Origin: Bacteroidota bacterium
Lineage (GTDB): Bacteria; Bacteroidota; Bacteroidia; UKL13-3
DNA length: 60,187 bases
NCBI GenBank assembly: GCA_947492885.1
Contig: CANLPK010000007.1
Location: 1-60,187 of the forward strand
Direction: 5' to 3'
Below are positions 32,136 to 47,748 of the stretch, piece by piece. The notes below the pieces were generated by a model, which had not been told where the DNA came from, did no database searches, and was given only the letters and a program-made list of their open reading frames with translations. A program made the translations under genes and the position numbers. Numbering within the stretch: the stretch's first letter is position 1; the number at the start of each line of letters is the position of its first letter.

Positions 32136-32147
32136 TGACTTTCATCA
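32136..32147. promoter_or_regulatory. Candidate CRP/FNR-type operator TGACTTTCATCA upstream of the histidine kinase operon
   Basis: TGA-N6-TCA centred 33 bp upstream of the -7 box TACCTTCG (32171-32178). Confidence 0.55.
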
Positions 32148-32204: not shown

Positions 32205-33410
32205 GTGAAAAATAATTTAGTATCAAAGATGGAAAGTAAAGAGGGTGTCGATGCCTTGTTCCTTTATGCAACAGAAGGAATTTTGGTTGTAAACGCTAAT
32301 GGCGAAATTATACGCACCAACCCGAGCGCCGAAAAATTATTCGGATATGGGGAGGGAGAGTTATTGAATCAAAAAATAGAAGTATTGGTACCGAAGAGTT
32401 TTTCTCATAAACATACTGCAGTAAGAGAAAACTATACGGAACATCCCAAGGCTCGTCACATGGGCGCAGGCTTGGAATTGATGGGATTGAAAAAAGATGG
32501 TACAGAGTTCCCGGTAGAAATAAGTTTAAGCCCTTATACCAGCCCACAGGGAAGGTTTGTTATTGCATTCATTGTGGATGGCACCTTGAGAAAACAATCA
32601 GAAGAAAAACAAAAAAATTACTCAACCGAACTCGAAAAGCAAGTTAAAAATAGAACGCTCATATTAGAAGAAGCTATTTCTGAATTAGAAAAAACAAAAC
32701 GCGATTTAAGAAAGGCACTCGAGAAAGAGAAGGAATTGAACGAATTGAAATCTCGATTTGTATCGATGGCTTCTCATGAATTCAGAACTCCTCTTACCAC
32801 CATCATGTCGTCGCTCTCATTAGTTACTAAGTATGGTGAGATCAATGATGCAGAAAATCAGAATAAGCATGTCAACAAAATAAAATCTTCTGTTATTAAT
32901 TTAACCGATATCCTTAACGATTTCTTATCGGTAAGTAAATTGGAAGAAGGTAAAATTGAGAACATGCCCGAAGACACTAATTTGATGGGATTTTTAGGTG
33001 AAATTATTTCTCAGATGGAATCAATGTGTAAGGATGGGCAGAAGATTCTACCATTTCATTCCGGAAACGAAATGGTAAATCTTGATAACAAACTGATGCG
33101 CAACGTGCTTTTAAATCTTATTTCTAATGCAATTAAATTCTCTCCTGAAGATAGTGTTATTGAAGTTCATGCTTTAGCGTTAAATTCGTCACTTAAAATT
33201 GCAGTTAAGGATAAGGGAATTGGCATTTCTAAGGAAGATCAGAAACATTTATTTGAACGATTCTTCCGCGGGCAAAATGCAACCCATATACAAGGTACCG
33301 GTTTAGGTCTTAATATCGTAACAAAATATGCCGAACTTATGAACGGCAGTATCGACTTCGAAAGTGAAGAAAATATAGGAACAACATTTACAATTATTAT
33401 ATCCCAGTAA
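32205..33410 (+). CDS. PAS-domain sensor histidine kinase
   Basis: PAS FLYATEGILVVNANGEIIRTNPSAEKLFGYGEGEL; HisKA MASHEFRTPLTTIMSSL; HATPase RNVLLNLISNAIKFSPE, DKGIGISKEDQKHLFERFFRG, GTGLGLNI. GTG start. Confidence 0.92.
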   Translation: MKNNLVSKMESKEGVDALFLYATEGILVVNANGEIIRTNPSAEKLFGYGEGELLNQKIEVLVPKSFSHKHTAVRENYTEHPKARHMGAGLELMGLKKDGTEFPVEISLSPYTSPQGRFVIAFIVDGTLRKQSEEKQKNYSTELEKQVKNRTLILEEAISELEKTKRDLRKALEKEKELNELKSRFVSMASHEFRTPLTTIMSSLSLVTKYGEINDAENQNKHVNKIKSSVINLTDILNDFLSVSKLEEGKIENMPEDTNLMGFLGEIISQMESMCKDGQKILPFHSGNEMVNLDNKLMRNVLLNLISNAIKFSPEDSVIEVHALALNSSLKIAVKDKGIGISKEDQKHLFERFFRGQNATHIQGTGLGLNIVTKYAELMNGSIDFESEENIGTTFTIIISQ

Positions 33411-33412
33411 GC

Positions 33413-34471
33413 ATGAAAAGAATCCTCTTAATTGAAGATAATAAAGACGTTAGAGAAAACACCGCAGAGATACTTAAATTATCGAAGTATCAGGTTATTA
33501 CCGCTAAAAATGGAAAGGAAGGCGTTGAACTCGCACAAACCGAGAAGCCTGACTTAATCATTTGCGATATTATGATGCCAATCCTCGATGGATATGGTGT
33601 TTTGCATATGTTATCAAAAAGCGAGGAAACAAGTGGTATCCCTTTCATATTCCTAACAGCGAAAGCAGAGCGTGGCGACTTCAGAAAAGGAATGGAAATG
33701 GGAGCTGATGATTACCTTACCAAACCTTTTGATGATGTAGAGTTACTTAATGCTATTGAAAGTCGTTTAAAGAAAAACGAAATTCTAAAAAAAGAATTTG
33801 CTAAAAATATCGATGGGATTAGTGATTTCATTAATGAGGCTAAAGGTATTGAATCTTTAAAAAAGTTATCGGAAGAAAGAGATGTTAGGCTATATAAAAA
33901 GAAAGATGATATTTTTAAAGAAGGTAGTAATCCGAAAGGAATCTATTTCATTGGAAAAGGGAAAGTAAAAACTTATCAAACCAACGAATTCGGAAAAGAT
34001 TTAATTACCGAATTATATAATGAAGGTGATTTCTTTGGCTACCTTTCGTTATTGCACGATGAAAATCATACCAGTTCGGCAACTGCATTAGAGGAATCAG
34101 AAATTTACATGATTCCAAAAGAAGATTTCTTTGCTTTGATGTATAAAAATGCAGGAGTATCTAAGAAATTTATTGAAATGCTTTCTGACAATTTATTGGA
34201 AAAAGAAAAGCAATTAATAAAGTTAGCTTACGATTCTGTACGCAAAAGAGTTGCAGAAGCATTGGTGAAACTCTCTGATAAATACAAGAAGGAAGATGAT
34301 CAAAAATTTAGTATGAATATTTCTAGGGAGGATTTGGCCAACTTAGTTGGTACCGCAACCGAAACCCTGATTCGTACTTTAAGCGACTTTAAAGATGAAA
34401 AATATATTGAAGTTTCTGGTGGAACCATTACCATCTTAAACTATACTCAGTTAGTGAAAATGAAAAATTAG
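33413..34471 (+). CDS. Response regulator fused to a cyclic-nucleotide-binding/HTH_Crp module
   Basis: REC: ILLIEDNKDVRENTAEIL, DLIICDIMMPILDGYG, FLTAKAERGD, DYLTKPF. Crp: GKGKVKTYQTNEFGKDLITELYNEGDFFGYLSLL, NISREDLANLVGTATETLIRTLSDFKDEKYIEV. Confidence 0.92.
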   Translation: MKRILLIEDNKDVRENTAEILKLSKYQVITAKNGKEGVELAQTEKPDLIICDIMMPILDGYGVLHMLSKSEETSGIPFIFLTAKAERGDFRKGMEMGADDYLTKPFDDVELLNAIESRLKKNEILKKEFAKNIDGISDFINEAKGIESLKKLSEERDVRLYKKKDDIFKEGSNPKGIYFIGKGKVKTYQTNEFGKDLITELYNEGDFFGYLSLLHDENHTSSATALEESEIYMIPKEDFFALMYKNAGVSKKFIEMLSDNLLEKEKQLIKLAYDSVRKRVAEALVKLSDKYKKEDDQKFSMNISREDLANLVGTATETLIRTLSDFKDEKYIEVSGGTITILNYTQLVKMKN

Positions 34472-37641: not shown

Positions 37642-37880
37642 TGCAACATAAAATTAGAATTCAAATAATTTCGGATAAAAAATATTTTATTGTCATAATA
37701 TTTCCTGTATTTGACAAGGATAACAAATAATCATAATGAAACTTAACCTAAGAACTCTTTCGTTTTATTGTCACTGTAAGTGCACGGTGAATTACAATGA
37801 CCTCCATCATCTGAATAATAACTTCTTAAAATATTCTTGCAATAATTCTCTTCTAACCTGACTTTAATCACTTTTAAAAC

Positions 37881-37892
37881 TGATGGGGCTCA
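37881..37892. promoter_or_regulatory. Candidate CRP/FNR-type operator TGATGGGGCTCA
   Basis: TGA-N6-TCA centred 33 bp upstream of -7 box TAACTTTG (37916-37923). Confidence 0.55.
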
Positions 37893-38058: not shown

Positions 38059-39390
38059 ATGAACATACTTAAAATAAAATTCGTCTGGGTGATCACCATC
38101 GCTGTATTAACATTAGGCTATTTAGCCAGTTGTACAAAAAACGATCAATACATTGGCCCTAAGGCTAAAGTTAGCGAAACTACCTTAATCTCTAAAAAGG
38201 TAACTACTGGTCCTACAGTTGATGGCACTGTTGATGCTGCATGGAATGATGCTGCTAAAATTACAGTAAGCCCACAAGTGCCTGATCCGGGTAATGCAAT
38301 GTTTACTGGTTATATTGGAGAAAATTATTCAACAACCATGCGTTCGATGTATGATAACCAATATATTTATTTTCTAGTAGAAGTTGTAGATAATACGAAG
38401 AGTTTCAAAGCTTCTCCATGGTATTTTAACGCTACAACTAAACGTTGGGCACAAGAATCAAATGCAAGAACATTTGATCCAAGTGGAGTCCTAATTAGAG
38501 AGGGATACGGTGAAGATAAATTGGCATTTTTATGGAATATTGACAATTCAACAGCCAAATTTACTTCTCAAACTTGTTATTCAAGTTGTCATATTTTCAC
38601 TCCTTACTTGAACTATGCAGTAACTCCGCCAGCCATGAAATCAAATTCAGGTAGTGGTAACCATTACACTAATGGAGCAAACGAAAAAATAGATATGTGG
38701 TGGGCGCATCCTGGAAGAGGATTGGTTTATAATATTATGGATGATAATTACCAAGATTGGGCAGGTGGTCCTAATGTAACTAGCCTAGTAGGTGGATCAG
38801 GAAATGGTCGCCATTTTGATGATTTAGTAGTTTCTGGTGCTTCTACAACTTGGCCAAATGCTCCAACCTACACTGCAGATGCAACTCAAGGTTCATTAAC
38901 TAACAGACAAAGTTTGAAATTAAATGATACAGGTGTTGTTATAACTGTGCCATTTTGGGTTGTTCCAAATGCAACCAATAGTGAGTACATTTTAGCATCT
39001 GATACCCTTGCAGGAGGCATTGCACGTAAAGTTACCAAAGTGGATTTGGATGGAGTTCTATATTATAATGGTGGAACCATTGATCCAAATGTAGGAACCG
39101 ATTATCAACGTCTTGGTACCACTGCTAAAAGTCCAATTGGTTCTAAATGTTTCCCAAGTTTAGTATTAGCTCCAGTATTAAGAGGACGTGCTGATATAAC
39201 ATGTTATACTACTTATACAGGTTCAGGATGGGTATATGAAATTAAACGTTTGTTGAAAACTGCTGATGTTTTAAAACAAGATGTTGACTTTTCTAGCCTA
39301 GAAGATCAACCTTTCGGGATTGCCTACTTTAATCAATCAAATTATCAACATGGTATTAAACCAAATTTAATGTTGAAATTCGAGAAATAG
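38059..39390 (+). CDS. Lipoprotein with ethylbenzene-dehydrogenase-related (EB_dh) heme domain and CXXCH motif
   Basis: Lipobox LASC; GPTVDGTVDAAWNDAAKITVSPQVP (EB_dh-like start); CYSSCH heme c motif. Confidence 0.75.
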   Translation: MNILKIKFVWVITIAVLTLGYLASCTKNDQYIGPKAKVSETTLISKKVTTGPTVDGTVDAAWNDAAKITVSPQVPDPGNAMFTGYIGENYSTTMRSMYDNQYIYFLVEVVDNTKSFKASPWYFNATTKRWAQESNARTFDPSGVLIREGYGEDKLAFLWNIDNSTAKFTSQTCYSSCHIFTPYLNYAVTPPAMKSNSGSGNHYTNGANEKIDMWWAHPGRGLVYNIMDDNYQDWAGGPNVTSLVGGSGNGRHFDDLVVSGASTTWPNAPTYTADATQGSLTNRQSLKLNDTGVVITVPFWVVPNATNSEYILASDTLAGGIARKVTKVDLDGVLYYNGGTIDPNVGTDYQRLGTTAKSPIGSKCFPSLVLAPVLRGRADITCYTTYTGSGWVYEIKRLLKTADVLKQDVDFSSLEDQPFGIAYFNQSNYQHGIKPNLMLKFEK

Positions 39391-39431
39391 CCTCTGGCAT
39401 CTTTTCCATTAATCATTTAAAAAAAAAGATC

Positions 39432-39830
39432 ATGTCAAAGAAAATAATAGCTATAACACTAATACTGGTTACACTAAGTTTGGTTCTGTTTACCAGCTGT
39501 TATAAAGTAACAACCTTGACCGTGGCGAATACTGCTGAAATTACCGAGGATGTTAGTTTTTCAAAAGATTTGGCACCTCTTTATGCAGCAAGTTGCTCTG
39601 TAAGTGGTTGCCATAGTAGTGGTGGGATAAAACCCGACCTCTCGCCTGAAAAACTTTACTCATCCTTGGTAGAAGGTAACTACGTGAATGTTGATGAACC
39701 GGAGAAAAGTTCAGTATATCTCTCCCTTACTGGAAATGGCAAAGTATCAATGCCTGTGGGTACTAATAACCCTTCCAACATTAATAATTTGATGTTGGCT
39801 TGGATCAAACAAGGCGCTAAAAACAATTAA
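39432..39830 (+). CDS. Small lipoprotein, c-type cytochrome-like with CX4CH motif
   Basis: Lipobox FTSC; LAPLYAASCSVSGCHSSGGIKPDLSPEKLYSSL; C-terminal VSMPVGTNN...LMLAWIKQGAKNN. Confidence 0.7.
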   Translation: MSKKIIAITLILVTLSLVLFTSCYKVTTLTVANTAEITEDVSFSKDLAPLYAASCSVSGCHSSGGIKPDLSPEKLYSSLVEGNYVNVDEPEKSSVYLSLTGNGKVSMPVGTNNPSNINNLMLAWIKQGAKNN

Positions 39831-39841
39831 AAAATATCATC

Positions 39842-40789
39842 ATGACAAAATTTAAAAAATATCTTCAATTTATGATGTTGCCTGCCAGCATATGCTTATT
39901 CCTCTTATTAAGCATAGGAACTATGGCACAGGACAGCACTGCGGTTCCAAGTAAGAAACCAGTTAAGAACACTTTTGAGAGCAATTGGGTGCTCGACAAT
40001 CAAAGTGTAATGGTACCTATAAAAGGCACTCTAGAAATGGACATGCAACACCGTTTTGGAACTGTTAGAAATGGTTTCAAAGACTTTTACGGAATTTATG
40101 CTCCTTCAAATATTCGTATCGGATTTAGCTATGTTCCTATGGAAAAACTACAATTTGGCTTTGGTTTTACTAAAGAAAGATTACAACTTGACTTAAATGC
40201 CAAGTATGCTATCCTGAAGCAAACCAAAGGAGGAATACCGGTAAGTATTACCTATTTTGTGAATACTGTAATTGAGACTACCCCTGATAAAGATAATTTA
40301 ATTTATGTAACTGGTGGTGATCGTATGTCGTATTTTCATCAATTAATTATTGCTTCAAAAATTACTGATAAAATATCATTACAAGTATCTCCAAGCATTT
40401 CACATTATAATAATGTAGAGGGTGTTTTAGATGCAGACGGTATCGTTCAACGTAATATGAAAAATGATCATGTGGCTATTGCATTCATGGGTCGTTACAA
40501 AGTATCAGATAAGATGAATGTGTTAATTAATTACGATCAACCAATTACCCAACATCCTGGATTGAAGAAAAACACAAATCCTAATCCGAATTTGAGCGTT
40601 GGAGTTGAATTTGTAACAAGTGCACATGCATTCCAATTGATTTTTGGTAACTACCAAGGAATTACTCCTCAAAGCAATAATTACTTTAACCATAATGCTC
40701 CTTTCAAATACACTACTGCCGATGGTACTGAAATGAAAGGTGGAATGTTCTTAATAGGCTTTAACATAACCAGACTTTGGAATTTATAA
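39842..40789 (+). CDS. DUF5777-like outer-membrane beta-barrel
   Basis: Signal peptide; VKNTFESNWVLDNQSVMVPIKGTLEMDMQHRFGTVRNGFKDFYGIYAPSNIRIGFSYVP; ends NITRLWNL. Paralog of 43282-44193. Confidence 0.75.
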   Translation: MTKFKKYLQFMMLPASICLFLLLSIGTMAQDSTAVPSKKPVKNTFESNWVLDNQSVMVPIKGTLEMDMQHRFGTVRNGFKDFYGIYAPSNIRIGFSYVPMEKLQFGFGFTKERLQLDLNAKYAILKQTKGGIPVSITYFVNTVIETTPDKDNLIYVTGGDRMSYFHQLIIASKITDKISLQVSPSISHYNNVEGVLDADGIVQRNMKNDHVAIAFMGRYKVSDKMNVLINYDQPITQHPGLKKNTNPNPNLSVGVEFVTSAHAFQLIFGNYQGITPQSNNYFNHNAPFKYTTADGTEMKGGMFLIGFNITRLWNL

Positions 40790-40869
40790 ATTGGAACGGT
40801 TTTGGCTATTAACATTTCAGAAATCTAATTTATTTATTTTAGCATACTTTAAAATTATTATCACTCAAA

Positions 40870-41283
40870 ATGAAAAGCAAATTATTCACCGCTGTATTCA
40901 TCCTATTTGCCTCAACTCTTATATTAGTGGCAACTTCAGGATTTAAACCTTCACAAGGAAAGCCTTGGCCAGTTCCCGACAAAAATGCAAAAATGGCTAA
41001 TCCCGTAAAATCTTCTGCAACTTCAATCGCTGAAGGTAAAGCATTGTGGGTTAAACATTGTCAATCATGTCATGGAAAAACAGGTAAAGGTGATGGAACT
41101 AAAGCAGCTTCATTGAAAACTGAACCTGGAAATTTCGTAACTCCTGCTTTCCAAAAGCAAAGCGATGGTACTTTGTTCTATAAGGTTTCTGAAGGAAGAG
41201 AAGACATGCCTAGCTTCAAGAAAAAAATTCCAGATACAGAAGAAATCTGGAGCTTGGTGGTTTACATGAGAACTCTTAAATAA
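40870..41283 (+). CDS. Monoheme cytochrome c
   Basis: AEGKALWVKHCQSCHGKTGKGDGTKAASLKTEPGNF ... DMPSFKKKIPDTEEIWSLVVYMRTLK. Confidence 0.9.
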   Translation: MKSKLFTAVFILFASTLILVATSGFKPSQGKPWPVPDKNAKMANPVKSSATSIAEGKALWVKHCQSCHGKTGKGDGTKAASLKTEPGNFVTPAFQKQSDGTLFYKVSEGREDMPSFKKKIPDTEEIWSLVVYMRTLK

Positions 41284-41304
41284 GAAGTATTTCAAGATTT
41301 TTCC

Positions 41305-41338
41305 AAACCCCACTCATAAATTGAGTGGGGTTTTTTAT
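41305..41338 (+). terminator. Rho-independent terminator
   Basis: AAACCCCACTCA-taaat-TGAGTGGGGTTT followed by TTT. Confidence 0.9.
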
Positions 41339-41442
41339 TTTATATTGCTACTATTAAACCTTTCCCATGTATCAATTCCACATCTATGATATTCATTGAA
41401 TTTTCTTAATTTCGAATCATTAGATATCAAACTCATTTAAAA

Positions 41443-41955
41443 ATGTCTCCAAAAACACTATTCACGATAATCATAAAAATTTTTGGCCTTTGGATGATTT
41501 TTTCAATTCTTGAAATTATCCCTCAGGTGCTAGCTACATTACCTATGTTTATTGCCAATGGAGGAATTAATATTAATTCATCTTTGATAATAATGATTCT
41601 AATTCCAGTCTTCTATATCTTAATTATTTGGTTTTTACTATTTAAGTCTGAATTAATCATACGTTATTTGTCGCTCGACAAACATTTTGAACACGAACAT
41701 CTCCAATTTCAATTTACTGCAGCTGAAATACTTCGGGTGGTCATATTAATTATTGGAGGATTATTAATTTTAGAGTCCATTCCTAAATTAATTGAACAAG
41801 GCATTACTTACGTTCAAAAAGATGCCTCCCAAAGCTATTTACCTTATTCGGGTTATTCAGAGCTAAGAATATTAATTTCAAAAATGTTTTTAGGGTTAAT
41901 ATTAATCTATTTTAATAGTTCACTGTGCCAATTGATTTCCAAGAAGCCTGAGTAA
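41443..41955 (+). CDS. Hypothetical membrane protein (about 4 TM)
   Basis: Hydrophobic segments IFGLWMIFSILEIIPQVLATL, SLIIMILIPVFYILIIWFLLF; TAATTTCG box at 41407-41414. Confidence 0.65.
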   Translation: MSPKTLFTIIIKIFGLWMIFSILEIIPQVLATLPMFIANGGININSSLIIMILIPVFYILIIWFLLFKSELIIRYLSLDKHFEHEHLQFQFTAAEILRVVILIIGGLLILESIPKLIEQGITYVQKDASQSYLPYSGYSELRILISKMFLGLILIYFNSSLCQLISKKPE

Positions 41956-42061
41956 TGATAGAATTGTTGAAGTTTCTATTGTAATTACGAGAATAGAATA
42001 TACAAAAAATGATTTAAGTTACGTAACATAAGTTACATGATGACGTTTATCATTTAAAATT

Positions 42062-42075
42062 ATGACGGGTGTCAT
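42062..42075. promoter_or_regulatory. Candidate CRP/FNR-type operator ATGACGGGTGTCAT
   Basis: ATGAC-N4-GTCAT perfect palindrome arms centred 34 bp upstream of -7 box TACCTTTG (42099-42106). Confidence 0.65.
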
Positions 42076-42098
42076 TGAACGGGTGTAATTCGTGACCT

Positions 42099-42106
42099 TA
42101 CCTTTG
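42099..42106 (+). promoter_or_regulatory. -7 promoter box TACCTTTG for the YceI/cytochrome/barrel operon
   Basis: TACCTTTG matches TAnnTTTG. Confidence 0.6.
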
Positions 42107-42145
42107 AGTCGTTAATATAATAATTAATTCTAATCTCAATACATC

Positions 42146-42835
42146 ATGAACTTCTCAATCAAATCTCGCATCTTGCCTTTGGCAATCTTTTTATTCGGTA
42201 CTTTAGCATATATGGCTAGTTGCCGTAAAACAGATGACCCAGCCGTTGTTACACCTCCAACCATTACTCGTGGCACTGAAAATGTAACACTTACTAACAC
42301 CAAAACTACCTTCGATAAATCACACGGTAACGTGAATTGGTCAACTTCATACTTGGGAGCACTATCTCAATTAACTGGTCGATTCAACTCTTTTGGAATG
42401 ACCACCTTCAATTTTGAAGAATCAAATCCAGCTGCAATTAATTTCGAATCGTGGGTATACATTAATACAGTTAATACTAGCGAGCCAGGACGTGATTATG
42501 GTTGCCTTCAAACTACTTTTGGTGTAGATACTACCATGAGAGAACAAGCAGCGAATAAGGCGATTATTAAATCAAAAAGTGTTACTTATAGTACCACTGA
42601 CAAAGGTTATATCGTTAAGTTTGATTTCACTTTCCATGGTGTAACTAAAGAATTAACTGGTAAATTGAATTACTCAGGACATACTACCACTGGTACTGGT
42701 GCTACTTTAAAAGATGTTTATGGATTTACCTTCGACTTCCAATTCTTGGCTAAAACTGATTTCTTAATTACCTCTACTAATATCGCCGACTTAATTGATA
42801 TTAAATGTGATGCAATCTTCAGAAAAGTTCAATAA
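42146..42835 (+). CDS. YceI-like lipoprotein
   Basis: Lipobox MASC; NTKTTFDKSHGNVNWSTSYLGALSQLTGRFNSFGMTTFNFEESNPAAINFESWVYINTVNTSEPGRD. Confidence 0.75.
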   Translation: MNFSIKSRILPLAIFLFGTLAYMASCRKTDDPAVVTPPTITRGTENVTLTNTKTTFDKSHGNVNWSTSYLGALSQLTGRFNSFGMTTFNFEESNPAAINFESWVYINTVNTSEPGRDYGCLQTTFGVDTTMREQAANKAIIKSKSVTYSTTDKGYIVKFDFTFHGVTKELTGKLNYSGHTTTGTGATLKDVYGFTFDFQFLAKTDFLITSTNIADLIDIKCDAIFRKVQ

Positions 42836-42878
42836 TTAAATTGATTTTTTATATAAGATTTTTCATACAATTATTATC

Positions 42879-43262
42879 ATGAAATTAAAGATATTCATAA
42901 TACTATTAGGTGCTCTTGTAACAATCGGGTTATCCGGTTGTTACAAAGACATCAATGATCCTGGAGATCCGCTAGCCCCACCGGCAGCGGTTAGCTTCAG
43001 CGGAGAACTCCTTCCTATGTTTACTGCTAATTGCGCTACCGCTGGTTGCCATGATGCAGTTCCTTCACACAAACCTTCACTTACTGCTGAAAACGCTTAC
43101 AAAGCATTGAAAAATGGCGGATTTATCGATCCGTTTGAACCCACCAATAGCATTATTTATAGTGTTGTTAAATCGGGTGAAATGCCTCCAAGTGGCCCTT
43201 TAAAAGCAACTAAAGTGAAAATGATTCTTGACTGGATTCGTAATGGTGCCCCAAACAACTAA
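42879..43262 (+). CDS. Small lipoprotein, c-type cytochrome-like with CX4CH motif
   Basis: Lipobox LSGC; LLPMFTANCATAGCHDAVPSHKPSLTAENAYKALKNGG; C-terminal MILDWIRNGAPNN. Paralog of 39432-39830. Confidence 0.72.
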   Translation: MKLKIFIILLGALVTIGLSGCYKDINDPGDPLAPPAAVSFSGELLPMFTANCATAGCHDAVPSHKPSLTAENAYKALKNGGFIDPFEPTNSIIYSVVKSGEMPPSGPLKATKVKMILDWIRNGAPNN

Positions 43263-43281
43263 TTTTTAATCTACACTTATT

Positions 43282-44193
43282 ATGAACCAGAAAATTAATA
43301 CCGTACAAACATGGATGCAAAAACTATCTCTTTTTGCTCTTACGTTTCTTTTGCTGAATATTCCTGCATTTAGTCAGGACTCTACTACTACTACCGAAGC
43401 GCCTGTTAAGGCTAAACCAGTAAAAAACACTTTCGAAAGCATTTGGATCATCGACAATCAAACCGTGATGGTGCCTATCAAAGGAACTTTTGAAATGGAT
43501 ATCCTACACCGTTTTGGAATTATAAAAAATGGATATTCAGATCTTGCCGGACTATTCGCACCTTCTAATATTAGATTGGGGTTCGAATATGTCCCAATCA
43601 ATAATTTGATGCTTGGATTCTCTATCACCAAAGCCAATATGACATGGGAAGGATATGCTAAATATGCCATTCTAAAACAAACAAAAGGAATATATCCTGT
43701 TAGTGTTACTTACTTTGGTGATGTCTCTGTTGACTCCCGGGATAAAGACAATTTTATTCATTCATCTGATCGATTGATGTATTTTAATCAATTAATTATT
43801 GCTCGTAAAATAACTGAAAACTTCTCGTTACAATTGGCTCCAAGTCATACTCATGTAAATGTAGTAGATGGAGATTATGATTCCGGTAAATTATTGGGCA
43901 GTATGAACCACAATCACTTTGCTTTGGGCGTTTCGGGTAGATATAGAATTAAATCGGCGATGGCAGTACTTGTAAATTATGATCAACCGCTTACGCAACA
44001 CCGCAAAAACAATCCTCAACCAAACCTTTCGTTGGGAATTGAATTCACTACCAGTTCTCATGCTTTCCAAATATTCTTAGGTAATTACAACTCAATTACA
44101 CCTCAAAGAAATAATTATTTCAATAAAAATGATTTCTCTGATTTTCAACAATATTTAATCGGGTTTAATATTACTCGCTTATTTAATTTTTAA
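43282..44193 (+). CDS. DUF5777-like outer-membrane beta-barrel
   Basis: VKNTFESIWIIDNQTVMVPIKGTFEMDILHRFGIIKNGYSDLAGLFAPSNIRLGFEYVP; ends NITRLFNF. Confidence 0.75.
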   Translation: MNQKINTVQTWMQKLSLFALTFLLLNIPAFSQDSTTTTEAPVKAKPVKNTFESIWIIDNQTVMVPIKGTFEMDILHRFGIIKNGYSDLAGLFAPSNIRLGFEYVPINNLMLGFSITKANMTWEGYAKYAILKQTKGIYPVSVTYFGDVSVDSRDKDNFIHSSDRLMYFNQLIIARKITENFSLQLAPSHTHVNVVDGDYDSGKLLGSMNHNHFALGVSGRYRIKSAMAVLVNYDQPLTQHRKNNPQPNLSLGIEFTTSSHAFQIFLGNYNSITPQRNNYFNKNDFSDFQQYLIGFNITRLFNF

Positions 44194-44317: not shown

Positions 44318-44572
44318 ATGGATATGACCGACAAAATTCAAACCCGCAAAAAATTCATTGGCGCAGGCGTCACTGCGGCGGCAATGCTCACTGCACTACG
44401 TTTCTTTATTCCTGAAAAAAAGAAAGGAAATGAAACCGTAAAAATGCTCACTCAGGATGGCACACTTGTAGAAGTTGATGCCTCCAAGGTACAGGAAATT
44501 GAAAAACTTCTTTGTGTAAAGGGGAAGAAAATTAGTAACGAACAATTACAAAACTGGGTTTACCAAAAGTAA
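44318..44572 (+). CDS. Small exported or membrane-anchored protein related to the N-terminus of the downstream ferredoxin
   Basis: N-terminal TRKKFIGAGVTAAAMLTALRFF; VKMLTQDGTLVEVDASKV resembles VKLLSVNGEVIEIDKAF in 44604-45542. Confidence 0.65.
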   Translation: MDMTDKIQTRKKFIGAGVTAAAMLTALRFFIPEKKKGNETVKMLTQDGTLVEVDASKVQEIEKLLCVKGKKISNEQLQNWVYQK

Positions 44573-44603: not shown

Positions 44604-45542
44604 ATGGAAAATAAAGAAACCTCAAGAAGAAACTTCCTTGCCACTGCGCTCCTAGCTGGAGTTGCTGCCGGTTGTATTCCAAATAAAAATCCCTTTGAAG
44701 GATATGCTGAGGACGTTAAAGCTTCGGGTGAAAAAGTGAAGCTTTTATCAGTAAATGGCGAAGTCATTGAAATTGACAAAGCATTTTTAAAGCCAGTTCC
44801 CGATTTACCTCCTGTCTCAAATATTGAAGCAAGAAGAGGAATTGCTGGAAAGAAATTTGTAATGGTCATTGACCTCTCCCGCTGTAAAAATGTGAAAGCT
44901 TGCCAAACAGCTTGTAATCATATGCATTCAGTTCATCCAACTCAAAACTGGATTAAGGTGCTCGAAATGCAAGATGCTGATAAAACAGCTCCTTATTGGG
45001 AACCTACTACTTGTATGCATTGCGATGAACCTCCATGTGTGAAGGTTTGCCCTGTGGATGCGACCTTCAAACGTCAAGATGGTATTGTACTCATTGATAG
45101 TGATCGTTGTATTGGATGTCGCTTCTGTATGGCTGCATGCCCTTACTCTACTCGTGTTTTTAACTGGGAAGAGCCAGTGCTCACCAAAGAAGTGGCCGAA
45201 AAAGATTATTCATGCGAAACCAGTATGCCTCAAAAGAAAGGCACCGTAGGTAAATGTGATTTCTGTCCTGATATGACTCGCAGAGGTGAATTACCTCATT
45301 GCGTTTCTGCTTGCCCAAATGGGGTATTTATGTTTGGTGATATGATTCAAGATTCAGTTACCAATGGTGCTGAAACATTCCGTTTCAGCGAACTCATCAA
45401 GGATAAAGCGGGATATCGTTTAATGGAAGATTTAGGTACAAAACCTAGCGTTTATTACCTACCTCCAGTGAATCGTAATTTCCCTTTTGAATCTGGATTG
45501 GATAACGTAATTGAAGATGACAAAAAATTTAAATCAAACTAA
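44604..45542 (+). CDS. 4Fe-4S ferredoxin-type electron-transfer subunit (DMSO-reductase B-like), exported lipoprotein
   Basis: SRRNFLATALLAGVAAGC (Tat-like plus lipobox); CMHCDEPPCVKVCP, CIGCRFCMAACP, CDFCPDMTRRGELPHCVSACP. Confidence 0.88.
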   Translation: MENKETSRRNFLATALLAGVAAGCIPNKNPFEGYAEDVKASGEKVKLLSVNGEVIEIDKAFLKPVPDLPPVSNIEARRGIAGKKFVMVIDLSRCKNVKACQTACNHMHSVHPTQNWIKVLEMQDADKTAPYWEPTTCMHCDEPPCVKVCPVDATFKRQDGIVLIDSDRCIGCRFCMAACPYSTRVFNWEEPVLTKEVAEKDYSCETSMPQKKGTVGKCDFCPDMTRRGELPHCVSACPNGVFMFGDMIQDSVTNGAETFRFSELIKDKAGYRLMEDLGTKPSVYYLPPVNRNFPFESGLDNVIEDDKKFKSN

Positions 45543-45548
45543 AAGATC

Positions 45549-46868
45549 GTGAATAATTCAAACACACTTACAAGCGAACAAATTACCAGCGACTTGCTTC
45601 CTCAAAAATTTGGAAGCCGCGGAATGATTTGGACCGGTATATTGGTTCTCATTTGCGCCATTGGTGCATATGCCTATTACCGACAATTAAGATACGGATT
45701 GGTAGTTACCAATATGAGAGACTATGTTTCTTGGGGTATTTACATTTCCAATTTCGTATTCTTCGTAGCCATCAGTTTGGTGGGCTCACTCATTACAGCC
45801 ATTCTTCGTTTGGCCAATGTACATTGGGCAACTCCTTTAACTCGAATCGCAGAAATTATTGCTGTTTCTGCTATCGTTTTTGCTTCTCTCATCATTATCG
45901 TAGATATGGGTCGTCCAGAGCGTTTTTATAATTTGCTTTTACATGGCCGACTTCAATCACCGATTATTTGGGACGTTGTAGTAATTAGTACCTACTTCTT
46001 AATAAGCTTATTGTTATTATACTTCCCGTTGCTGCCCGACCTTAAAATTATGATAAATTTTAAAGAGAAAACCGGGAATGCTTTACATAAATTGTATCGC
46101 TTTCAGGGTTCTTTCTGGAAAGGTACTGCCGAACAATTTAAAATTAGTGAACGCTCTATTAATATACTTTGTATTATCATTATCCCAGTGGCGTTTTGTA
46201 TTCACACGGTGACTTCTTGGTTATTCGCAACAACCTACAGACCAGGATGGGATAGTACCAACTTTGGTGCTTATTTCATCTCAGGTGCATTCTTAGTGGG
46301 TTCGGGCGCTGTTGTAGTAGCGATGTATGTTTTTCGCAGATACTATCACCTCGAAAAATACATCACCGAAATGCATTTCGAAAAAATGGGTAAGGTGGTT
46401 GTGCTCTTAGCGTTATTGTATCTGTATTTTAATGTTAACGAATACTTAGTTCCTGCCTTCAAAATGAAAAAACCAGAAGAAGCACATCTAGATGAATTAT
46501 TTACTGGTGAATATGCTCCTCTCTTTTGGTTTGCAATTATGATTGGTATGATTATCCCAATCTTCATCCTCATCTTTAAGAAAGGCAGAAAACCATTACC
46601 AATGTTTATCGCAGGCATTATGGTTGTTGTGGGCGCATGGTTCAAACGTTACCTCATTGTAACTCCTACCTTATTGCATCCATTCCTTCCTATGAATGAT
46701 GTACCAGCAAGTTATCATCACTACTACCCAAGTTGGGAAGAGTGGGCCATCGCCATGGGTTCCTTAGCTGGAGCACTTTTGGTAATTACCTTTTTTGCAC
46801 GCATTTATCCAATTATTCCAATTCATGAAACCATTATTGAAAATGAAAAACCAGCACATCAGGAATAG
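45549..46868 (+). CDS. nrfD: NrfD/polysulfide-reductase-type membrane quinol dehydrogenase
   Basis: Many TM helices; DYVSWGIYISNFVFFVAISLVGSLITA, IVDMGRPERFYNLLLHGRLQSPIIWDVV, HTVTSWLFATTYRPGWDSTNFGAYF. Confidence 0.9.
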   Translation: MNNSNTLTSEQITSDLLPQKFGSRGMIWTGILVLICAIGAYAYYRQLRYGLVVTNMRDYVSWGIYISNFVFFVAISLVGSLITAILRLANVHWATPLTRIAEIIAVSAIVFASLIIIVDMGRPERFYNLLLHGRLQSPIIWDVVVISTYFLISLLLLYFPLLPDLKIMINFKEKTGNALHKLYRFQGSFWKGTAEQFKISERSINILCIIIIPVAFCIHTVTSWLFATTYRPGWDSTNFGAYFISGAFLVGSGAVVVAMYVFRRYYHLEKYITEMHFEKMGKVVVLLALLYLYFNVNEYLVPAFKMKKPEEAHLDELFTGEYAPLFWFAIMIGMIIPIFILIFKKGRKPLPMFIAGIMVVVGAWFKRYLIVTPTLLHPFLPMNDVPASYHHYYPSWEEWAIAMGSLAGALLVITFFARIYPIIPIHETIIENEKPAHQE

Positions 46869-47748
46869 TATCCTACTCGTAATATGCTTATTTATAAGCG
46901 GGTTGAGCCTTCGTGCTCAAGACACAGCAAAGGCTGAAGCTGGAGAGCCATCAGTAGCACTTCGTTATTTTATTAAAAATAATAGTGAGCATTACCTGAT
47001 TGTTCGAACTAATATAAAAGTGGGAAAGAAAACCCAACGCCTCCCAAATCAAGTGATCAAAGTATTTTTGGATAGTGCCGGACCAGAGAATTTGCTTCTA
47101 AAAACTACTACCGATGATCAAGGTGAAGCAAAAGTTTATGTTCCTGTTGAAAGAGCTGAAAAATGGAATGCAAGTGCTAAACATAATTTTATCGGCGTAT
47201 TAGAGGCCTCCTCTCTCGAAGATGAAAGAAGCGCTGAGCTAGAAATAACTCGTGCAAAAATTGAAATGGATACCATCACCGAAGATGGGGTACGTTCCAT
47301 CACCGTGAAAGTTTCCTACTTAGAAGGAGCTGATTGGATGCCTGCAGCAGATGTTGAAATGAGATTGGGTGTTTCTCGCTCTGGGGGAATCCTTTCTGCT
47401 GGAACAGAAGAGTCATATACTACCGATTCTACTGGAAGTGTTACCGTTGAATTTAAACGCGATAGCCTACCTGGCGATGATAAAGGAAACTTTGTATTAA
47501 TGGCCAAGGTGGAAGACAATGATACTTACGGTAACTTATTAGTTGAAACAGTGGTTCCTTGGGGTGTTCCAGTAGTATATAATACTACCTTTTTTGATCA
47601 ACGTACTTTATGGACTACTCGCTTTAAAACACCATTCTGGTTATTATTTATGGCTTATACCATTGTAATCATTGTATGGGGAACAGTAATTTATCTTATT
47701 ATTCAAATTGTAAAAATTGGTAAGTTGAGTAAATCGGAACCCAATTAA
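46843..47748 (+). CDS. Exported protein with Ig-like extracytoplasmic region and C-terminal TM anchor
   Basis: Signal peptide after MKNQHIRNSILLVICLFISGLSLRAQ; C-terminal TPFWLLFMAYTIVIIVWGTVIYLIIQIV. Overlaps the nrfD 3' end by 26 nt. Confidence 0.7.
   Translation: MKNQHIRNSILLVICLFISGLSLRAQDTAKAEAGEPSVALRYFIKNNSEHYLIVRTNIKVGKKTQRLPNQVIKVFLDSAGPENLLLKTTTDDQGEAKVYVPVERAEKWNASAKHNFIGVLEASSLEDERSAELEITRAKIEMDTITEDGVRSITVKVSYLEGADWMPAADVEMRLGVSRSGGILSAGTEESYTTDSTGSVTVEFKRDSLPGDDKGNFVLMAKVEDNDTYGNLLVETVVPWGVPVVYNTTFFDQRTLWTTRFKTPFWLLFMAYTIVIIVWGTVIYLIIQIVKIGKLSKSEPN

Follow-up and report, generated by a model that had tools for sequence, protein, structure and literature searches.

A doubled DUF5777 barrel and cytochrome module as a candidate outer-membrane redox unit for low-oxygen respiration in Bacteroidota

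The contig CANLPK010000007.1 (60,187 nucleotides, assembly GCA_947492885.1; the window, i.e., the whole stretch of DNA analyzed) of a Bacteroidota bacterium of the lineage UKL13-3 carries two parallel gene cassettes, each encoding a lipoprotein of variable type, a small single-heme cytochrome lipoprotein with the motif CX4CH, and an outer-membrane barrel of the DUF5777 family. Both cassettes are part of a recurring operon that also includes a class I cytochrome c and a small iron-sulfur (Fe-S)/NrfD complex related to alternative complex III. We read this operon as a doubled, menaquinol-linked outer-membrane redox module for low-oxygen respiration and give this reading, in which electron flow, direction, and acceptor are inferred, about an even chance of being right. 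The cassettes consist of the following features.

38059..39390, + strand: first gene of cassette 1, an EB_dh/CBM9-fold lipoprotein with the c-type heme motif CX3CH (PF09459, E = 2e-15)
38575..38592, + strand: heme motif CYSSCH in that gene, read from the sequence and invariant in homologues
39432..39830, + strand: monoheme cytochrome lipoprotein of cassette 1, CSVSGCH at 39594-39614 (motif, alignment, and profile to FoxE/c6)
39842..40789, + strand: DUF5777 outer-membrane barrel of cassette 1 (PF19089, E = 3e-73)
42146..42835, + strand: first gene of cassette 2, a YceI-domain lipoprotein (PF04264, E = 2e-10)
42879..43262, + strand: monoheme cytochrome lipoprotein of cassette 2, CATAGCH at 43032-43052 (motif and alignment)
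43282..44193, + strand: DUF5777 barrel of cassette 2 (PF19089, E = 4e-75; structure model)

As an earlier note on this DNA had described, the six open reading frames occupy 38059-40789 and 42146-44193 in the same gene order, the second and third genes are paralogous (53% identity between the barrels and 33% between the small cytochromes), and the first genes are of the named types, an EB_dh-like c-heme lipoprotein in cassette 1 and a YceI-like one in cassette 2 (Pfam). Both barrels match PF19089 over its full length with 246 and 253 bits (cut-off 23.1). The same gene families as in the window recur around barrels in 76 loci from named genomes, and hosts of DUF5777 include Ferruginibacter, Flavihumibacter, Mucilaginibacter, Chryseolinea, Emticicia, Pontibacter, and Ginsengibacter. 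DUF5777 was found in 40 of 41 relatives and in 40 of 90 genomes sampled across the phylum Bacteroidota. The EB_dh and YceI cassette types occur in one locus in 16 of 73 loci, and in 8 of 35 when only full 20-kb loci are counted; among culturable hosts, Ferruginibacter paludis and Ginsengibacter hankyongi have both. The literature searched (5.39 million papers) contained no mention of DUF5777, and nothing was found in it on YceI with barrels and cytochromes or on Bacteroidota outer-membrane cytochromes with barrels. The gene set, of which the window has two copies, is widespread in Bacteroidota and undescribed in that literature.

The pairing of cytochrome and barrel is strongly supported by gene neighborhoods, co-divergence, and natural fusions. 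A co-directional gene with a heme motif (CX2-4CH) lies at most three genes away from 143 of 148 barrels, compared with 11 of 63 control genes, which favors the idea of the earlier note over a picture in which barrels mostly occur without cytochromes. In a separate phylum-wide sample, where either strand was counted, such a gene lies within three genes of 33 of 40 barrels, and two of the seven misses are at contig ends. Distances between cytochromes follow those between barrels (Mantel rho 0.78 overall, 0.55 and 0.70 when each cassette type is taken by itself, values that no shuffle reached). Seven fused proteins of 408-440 amino acids (aa) carry a CX4CH cytochrome at the N terminus and a DUF5777 domain at the C terminus, with both profiles matching, and because such one-frame fusions exist in nature, the barrel and the small cytochrome very probably interact.

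L189:5072-6307, L201, L202, L203, L204, L207, and L209 (locus numbers): single-frame cytochrome-DUF5777 fusions from deep Bacteroidota lineages; L189 and L205 are one and the same fusion gene

That the small lipoproteins bind heme is strongly indicated by their alignment (33 members), in which neither the Cys-Cys-His of the motif nor the lipidated Cys ever varies and the distal Met of a downstream Met-Pro is more than 90% conserved; this conserved site favors, at the level of sequence, the earlier claim of heme-bearing lipoproteins. CX4CH occurs in 52 of 52 EB_dh-type and 44 of 45 YceI-type cytochromes. A CX2CH member aligns to CX4CH at the identical site, and CX2CH and CX3CH are also seen in other associations. 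The profile of the family extends to FoxE and cytochrome c6 in the PDB, with FoxE as the best solved relative, while an identity with the NCBIfam LIC11213 lipoprotein was discarded, as the score is far under the cut-off. In the same genome (contig 14), the cytochrome homologue beside a third DUF5777 copy (L035:8935-9288) has a CX5CH motif (CASANGCH), a spacing also found in the homologue of L036. YceI-type members in which the distal Met is replaced by Ile, such as L093:16670-17050 and L097:9596-9976, would have an altered heme ligand or a five-coordinate heme.

The barrel at 43282 was modeled with 12 strands (mean predicted local distance difference test 89.6, predicted TM-score 0.80). Its nearest PDB structures are the small channels NanC, the COG4313 channel, and FapF; the TM-scores are modest, and identity is about 10%. 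A wire of the Mtr type is unlikely, as a 12-stranded barrel would be too small for a decaheme cytochrome, and a profile search of the 41 relatives found no MtrB/PioB (PF11854); membership in Mtr/Pcc was rejected on barrel size and this absence of PF11854. The porin-cytochrome unit of the earlier note thus survives as a unit of small cytochrome and barrel, given adjacency, fusions, a conserved heme site, and co-divergence, and not as a multiheme conduit of the Mtr/Pcc type, given 12 strands, single hemes, and no MtrB/PioB. The invariant H76 and H260 were also considered as ligands of a heme within the barrel but seem unlikely ones: side-chain alternation in the sequence has both residues facing the lipid, and they are not obviously close.

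Some loci without a cytochrome contain another carrier beside the YceI-DUF5777 pair. This is a Rieske protein at L062:128-544, L161:4515-4961, and L174:4242-4721, and a plastocyanin-type cupredoxin lipoprotein at L173:4121-4540. Because a Rieske protein or cupredoxin stands where the cytochrome is missing, this position is best described as a slot for a one-electron carrier, and the component of the cassettes that is exchanged is the electron carrier (cytochrome, Rieske, or cupredoxin), unlike the first gene. Two further Rieske matches, found by regular expression in L029 and L031, turned out to be diheme cytochromes and were discarded.

Other variants suggest partners outside the cell. Hexaheme lipoproteins with collagen-like N-terminal GPxGP repeats adjoin a DUF5777 barrel at L121:16504-17556 and L134:1576-2640. 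In L050, an ArrA-like molybdoenzyme (876 bits against a cut-off of 1600) lies beside the small cytochrome and barrel, accompanied by an ArrB-like Fe-S protein (L050:4620-5711) with a C-terminal sorting domain of the type IX secretion system (T9SS) and a NarJ-like chaperone nearby, a set that possibly represents a surface-exported molybdoenzyme. L121 also encodes an 886-aa protein (L121:3757-6417) with eight CVS[DE][VI]CH repeats, the regular spacing of which suggests a structural repeat rather than hemes.

The first genes of the two cassettes stem from unrelated families. The earlier statement that only the first gene is swapped reflects, by the barrel tree, an old divergence and no recent exchange. 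In a tree built from 97 barrels, two changes account for the distribution of the EB_dh/YceI label, compared with about 34 changes expected when shuffled, although this was a quick search with weak deep branches that does not settle the exact number of first-gene origins. So few changes rule out frequent swapping, and the first partners, which had been called interchangeable, are not freely so. The EB_dh-like and YceI-like cassettes represent two old, co-inherited lineages.

The cassette 1 lipoprotein scores above the EB_dh cut-off (PF09459; 57.8 vs. 33.3 bits), and the best PDB matches of its model are NXR-C (7b04) and EbdC (2ivf). Residues C173, C177, H178, and H431 are invariant among 45 homologues. 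In a profile alignment, the C-terminal H431 lies four profile positions from the NXR-C lysine, and the axial Met could not be placed; NXR-C itself holds a b-type heme through Met and Lys (PMC8387239). As both the CX3CH motif and H431 are invariant, a covalent heme with His/His ligation is plausible in this lipoprotein.

The unit had been drawn too small, as a class I cytochrome c (40870) and genes for Fe-S, NrfD, and Ig-like proteins (44604-47748) also belong to it. Fer4 and NrfD genes are present in 31 of the 35 full 20-kb loci, which, together with the kinship of NrfD to ActC, supports a link to quinol. The Fe-S subunit scores 184 bits against NCBIfam DsrO, under the cut-off of 200. The genes between and downstream of the cassettes are as follows.

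40870..41283, + strand: class I cytochrome c (CQSCH), likely a periplasmic shuttle (PF13442, E = 4e-12; recurs beside cassettes)
41443..41955, + strand: hydrophobic, apparently membrane protein (no Pfam match; close relatives only, family F14)
44318..44572, + strand: 84-aa protein similar to the N-terminal portion of the Fe-S subunit but lacking Fe-S cluster motifs (grouped with the Fer4 genes by sequence clustering)
44604..45542, + strand: Fe-S subunit with several [4Fe-4S] motifs, DsrO/QrcC/PsrB type (Pfam Fer4_11; DsrO; 2vpw NrfC)
45549..46868, + strand: membrane subunit of the NrfD family with ActC of alternative complex III as its nearest match (PF03916; 6f0k_C, E = 3e-47)
46825..47748, + strand: Ig-like membrane-anchored protein accompanying NrfD (weak Big_1 match; cluster F6, 59 members beside NrfD)

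TGA-N6-TCA sites precede each cassette, as noted earlier, and occur beyond chance across related loci. They lie upstream of 68 of 82 first genes compared with 63 of 290 other genes of the same loci (Fisher, 4e-24), and the enrichment is limited to a spacing of 6, with 124 sites, whereas spacings 2-5 and 7-10 give 4-15 sites and shuffled sequence gives 6.5. Seven of the eight TGAYN4RTCA sites in the window fall within 32.1-42.1 kb, where clustered sites precede the sensor kinase, a small gene, a divergent universal-stress/coenzyme A (CoA)-transferase pair, and both cassettes.

37798..37892: three TGA-N6-TCA sites upstream of cassette 1 (37798, 37859, 37881)
42041..42074: two TGA-N6-TCA sites upstream of cassette 2 (42041, 42063)
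32205..33410, + strand: PAS histidine kinase, likely the sensor of a local regulon (Pfam PAS/HisKA/HATPase_c; TGAYN4RTCA at 32136)
33413..34471, + strand: fusion of receiver, cyclic nucleotide monophosphate-binding, and HTH_Crp domains, candidate TGA-N6-TCA binder (Pfam; nearby sites)

This predicted regulon suggests that both cassettes are switched on together by a regulator of the CRP/FNR type, the obvious candidate being the receiver-Crp fusion encoded at 33413, and the inducing signal is probably oxygen limitation.

Taken as a respiratory unit, the module probably lets its hosts pass respiratory electrons to a target at or outside the outer membrane under low oxygen. Its core would be the 12-stranded DUF5777 barrel with the class I-like CX4CH cytochrome lipoprotein at what we take to be the periplasmic mouth. 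Menaquinol would be oxidized by the Fe-S/NrfD complex (44604-46868), from which the class I cytochrome c (40870) may carry electrons on to the barrel-bound CX4CH cytochrome. The latter could reduce a small redox-active molecule that enters the narrow pore, or hand electrons to the accessory lipoprotein, presumably the heme-bearing EB_dh/NXR-C-like protein in cassette 1 and the YceI-fold protein in cassette 2. Such a layout would be that of Cyc2 with a different and smaller barrel and a mostly separately encoded cytochrome, and the two cassettes would be old co-inherited versions serving different partners.

More tentatively, DUF5777 may mark minimal outer-membrane electron-transfer modules throughout the phylum, in which an exchangeable one-electron carrier (heme, Rieske, or blue copper) gates or plugs a 12-stranded pore; in one branch, a stripped-down alternative complex III would feed the module, and a heme lipoprotein like NXR-C would extend it outward. 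We think this broader proposal somewhat less probable than not. Known outer-membrane electron routes are large multiheme wires or Cyc2, and none was described for most Bacteroidota in the literature found. If true, the proposal would add a route unrelated to Mtr or Cyc2, and a family of small pores with swappable carriers would suggest that bacteria abundant in soils, lakes, and groundwater deal with redox compounds outside the cell when oxygen is low. Thanks to the fused forms, one gene is enough for a direct test of the idea.

Several observations weigh against outward respiration through this module. Going by the model, a barrel of 12 strands could not house a cytochrome, and one heme at the periplasmic mouth cannot by itself move electrons across the membrane. 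Many of the hosts are soil or freshwater heterotrophs without known extracellular respiration. Five of the 148 barrels have no co-directional CX2-4CH neighbor, two of these having a CX5CH cytochrome, and the distal Met is an Ile in 27 of 45 YceI-type cytochromes; both window proteins keep the Met. Signals for surface export of the lipoproteins are only suggestive. The lipoprotein export signal (LES) reads C-X-K-(D/E)2 from the lipidated Cys (PMC5080379); the window lipoproteins read CTKND and CRKTDD, the exact LES motif is found in 14% of EB_dh lipoproteins, and the share with at least two acidic residues at +3 to +6 is 26% among EB_dh, 51% among YceI, and 11% among small-cytochrome lipoproteins.

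Instead of respiring an external acceptor, the module may handle a membrane-soluble redox compound, with YceI binding an isoprenoid or quinone, the barrel moving or admitting it, and the small carrier oxidizing or reducing it. YceI-fold proteins bind polyisoprenoids, and 30 of the 40 barrels of the phylum-wide sample have YceI at most three genes away; YceI also persists when the carrier becomes a Rieske protein or a cupredoxin. Such lipid or quinone chemistry centered on YceI nevertheless seems unlikely, as cassette 1 and many of its relatives lack YceI and have only the EB_dh-like heme protein, the fused cytochrome-barrel genes do not always adjoin YceI, and the class I cytochrome and the NrfD complex point to respiration.

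Less likely again is a purely periplasmic respiratory branch, with the lipoproteins on the inner face of the outer membrane, periplasmic partners, and the barrel as an anchor or ordinary porin. The narrow 12-stranded barrel and small cytochromes without a clear surface-export signal would fit this arrangement, but fusion and co-divergence tie the carrier to the barrel itself, and the hexaheme collagen-like lipoproteins and the T9SS-tagged Fe-S subunit near the barrel suggest outside partners. Least probable is the oxidative direction proposed for Cyc2, with an external donor oxidized at the barrel and electrons running inward, where either cytochrome c and an oxidase or menaquinone would receive them; the Cyc2 layout (PMC8406198) and the kinship with FoxE agree with it, whereas CRP/FNR-type sites beside a CoA-transferase and a universal stress gene in the window suggest a shortage of acceptor, and in the L050 variant an arsenate-reductase-like enzyme accompanies the barrel.

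Among known systems, the Fe-S and NrfD pair (44604-46868) resembles those of alternative complex III (ActBC), Qrc, and DsrOP, with an ActC-like NrfD next to an Fe-S protein. It differs from them in that the window has only the Fe-S protein, one NrfD, and the small Ig-like protein, with no ActA, ActE, ActF, or molybdopterin-like ActB region among the genes beside 44604-47748. The cassette 1 lipoprotein has its fold in common with NXR-C and EbdC. The latter two, however, hold a b-type heme via Met/Lys inside molybdoenzymes (PMC8387239), whereas the cassette 1 protein is a lipoprotein with a covalent CX3CH motif that no molybdoenzyme adjoins in the window.

Like MtrCAB and Pcc systems, the module has the gene of an outer-membrane barrel and those of heme lipoproteins in one operon, and NrfD or another quinol module sending electrons outward is a known theme. 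MtrCAB has a 26-stranded barrel that encloses a decaheme cytochrome, whereas the module combines 12 modeled strands with single hemes, and the window barrels belong to PF19089 and not to the MtrB/PioB family. Only single-heme motifs occur in the window, a hexaheme protein being found only in L121 and L134.

Cyc2 offers a closer analogy in layout than MtrCAB. In the picture proposed for Cyc2 (PMC8406198), a single-heme domain acts as a plug at the periplasmic mouth, and small ions enter the pore; the module likewise combines a single heme in a small c-type cytochrome domain, N-terminal in the fusions, with a C-terminal outer-membrane barrel, as one polypeptide in seven DUF5777 cases. Cyc2, by contrast, has a phosphate-porin-like barrel of 16 strands and CXXCH (PMC8406198), compared with 12 modeled strands, CX4CH, and the DUF5777 family here. 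In the window, as usual for the module, cytochrome and barrel are in separate genes, and the fused relatives match DUF5777 and no phosphate-porin family. As far as its sequences tell, the module would act as a porin-cytochrome module, yet it departs from both Cyc2 and Mtr in the features tested.

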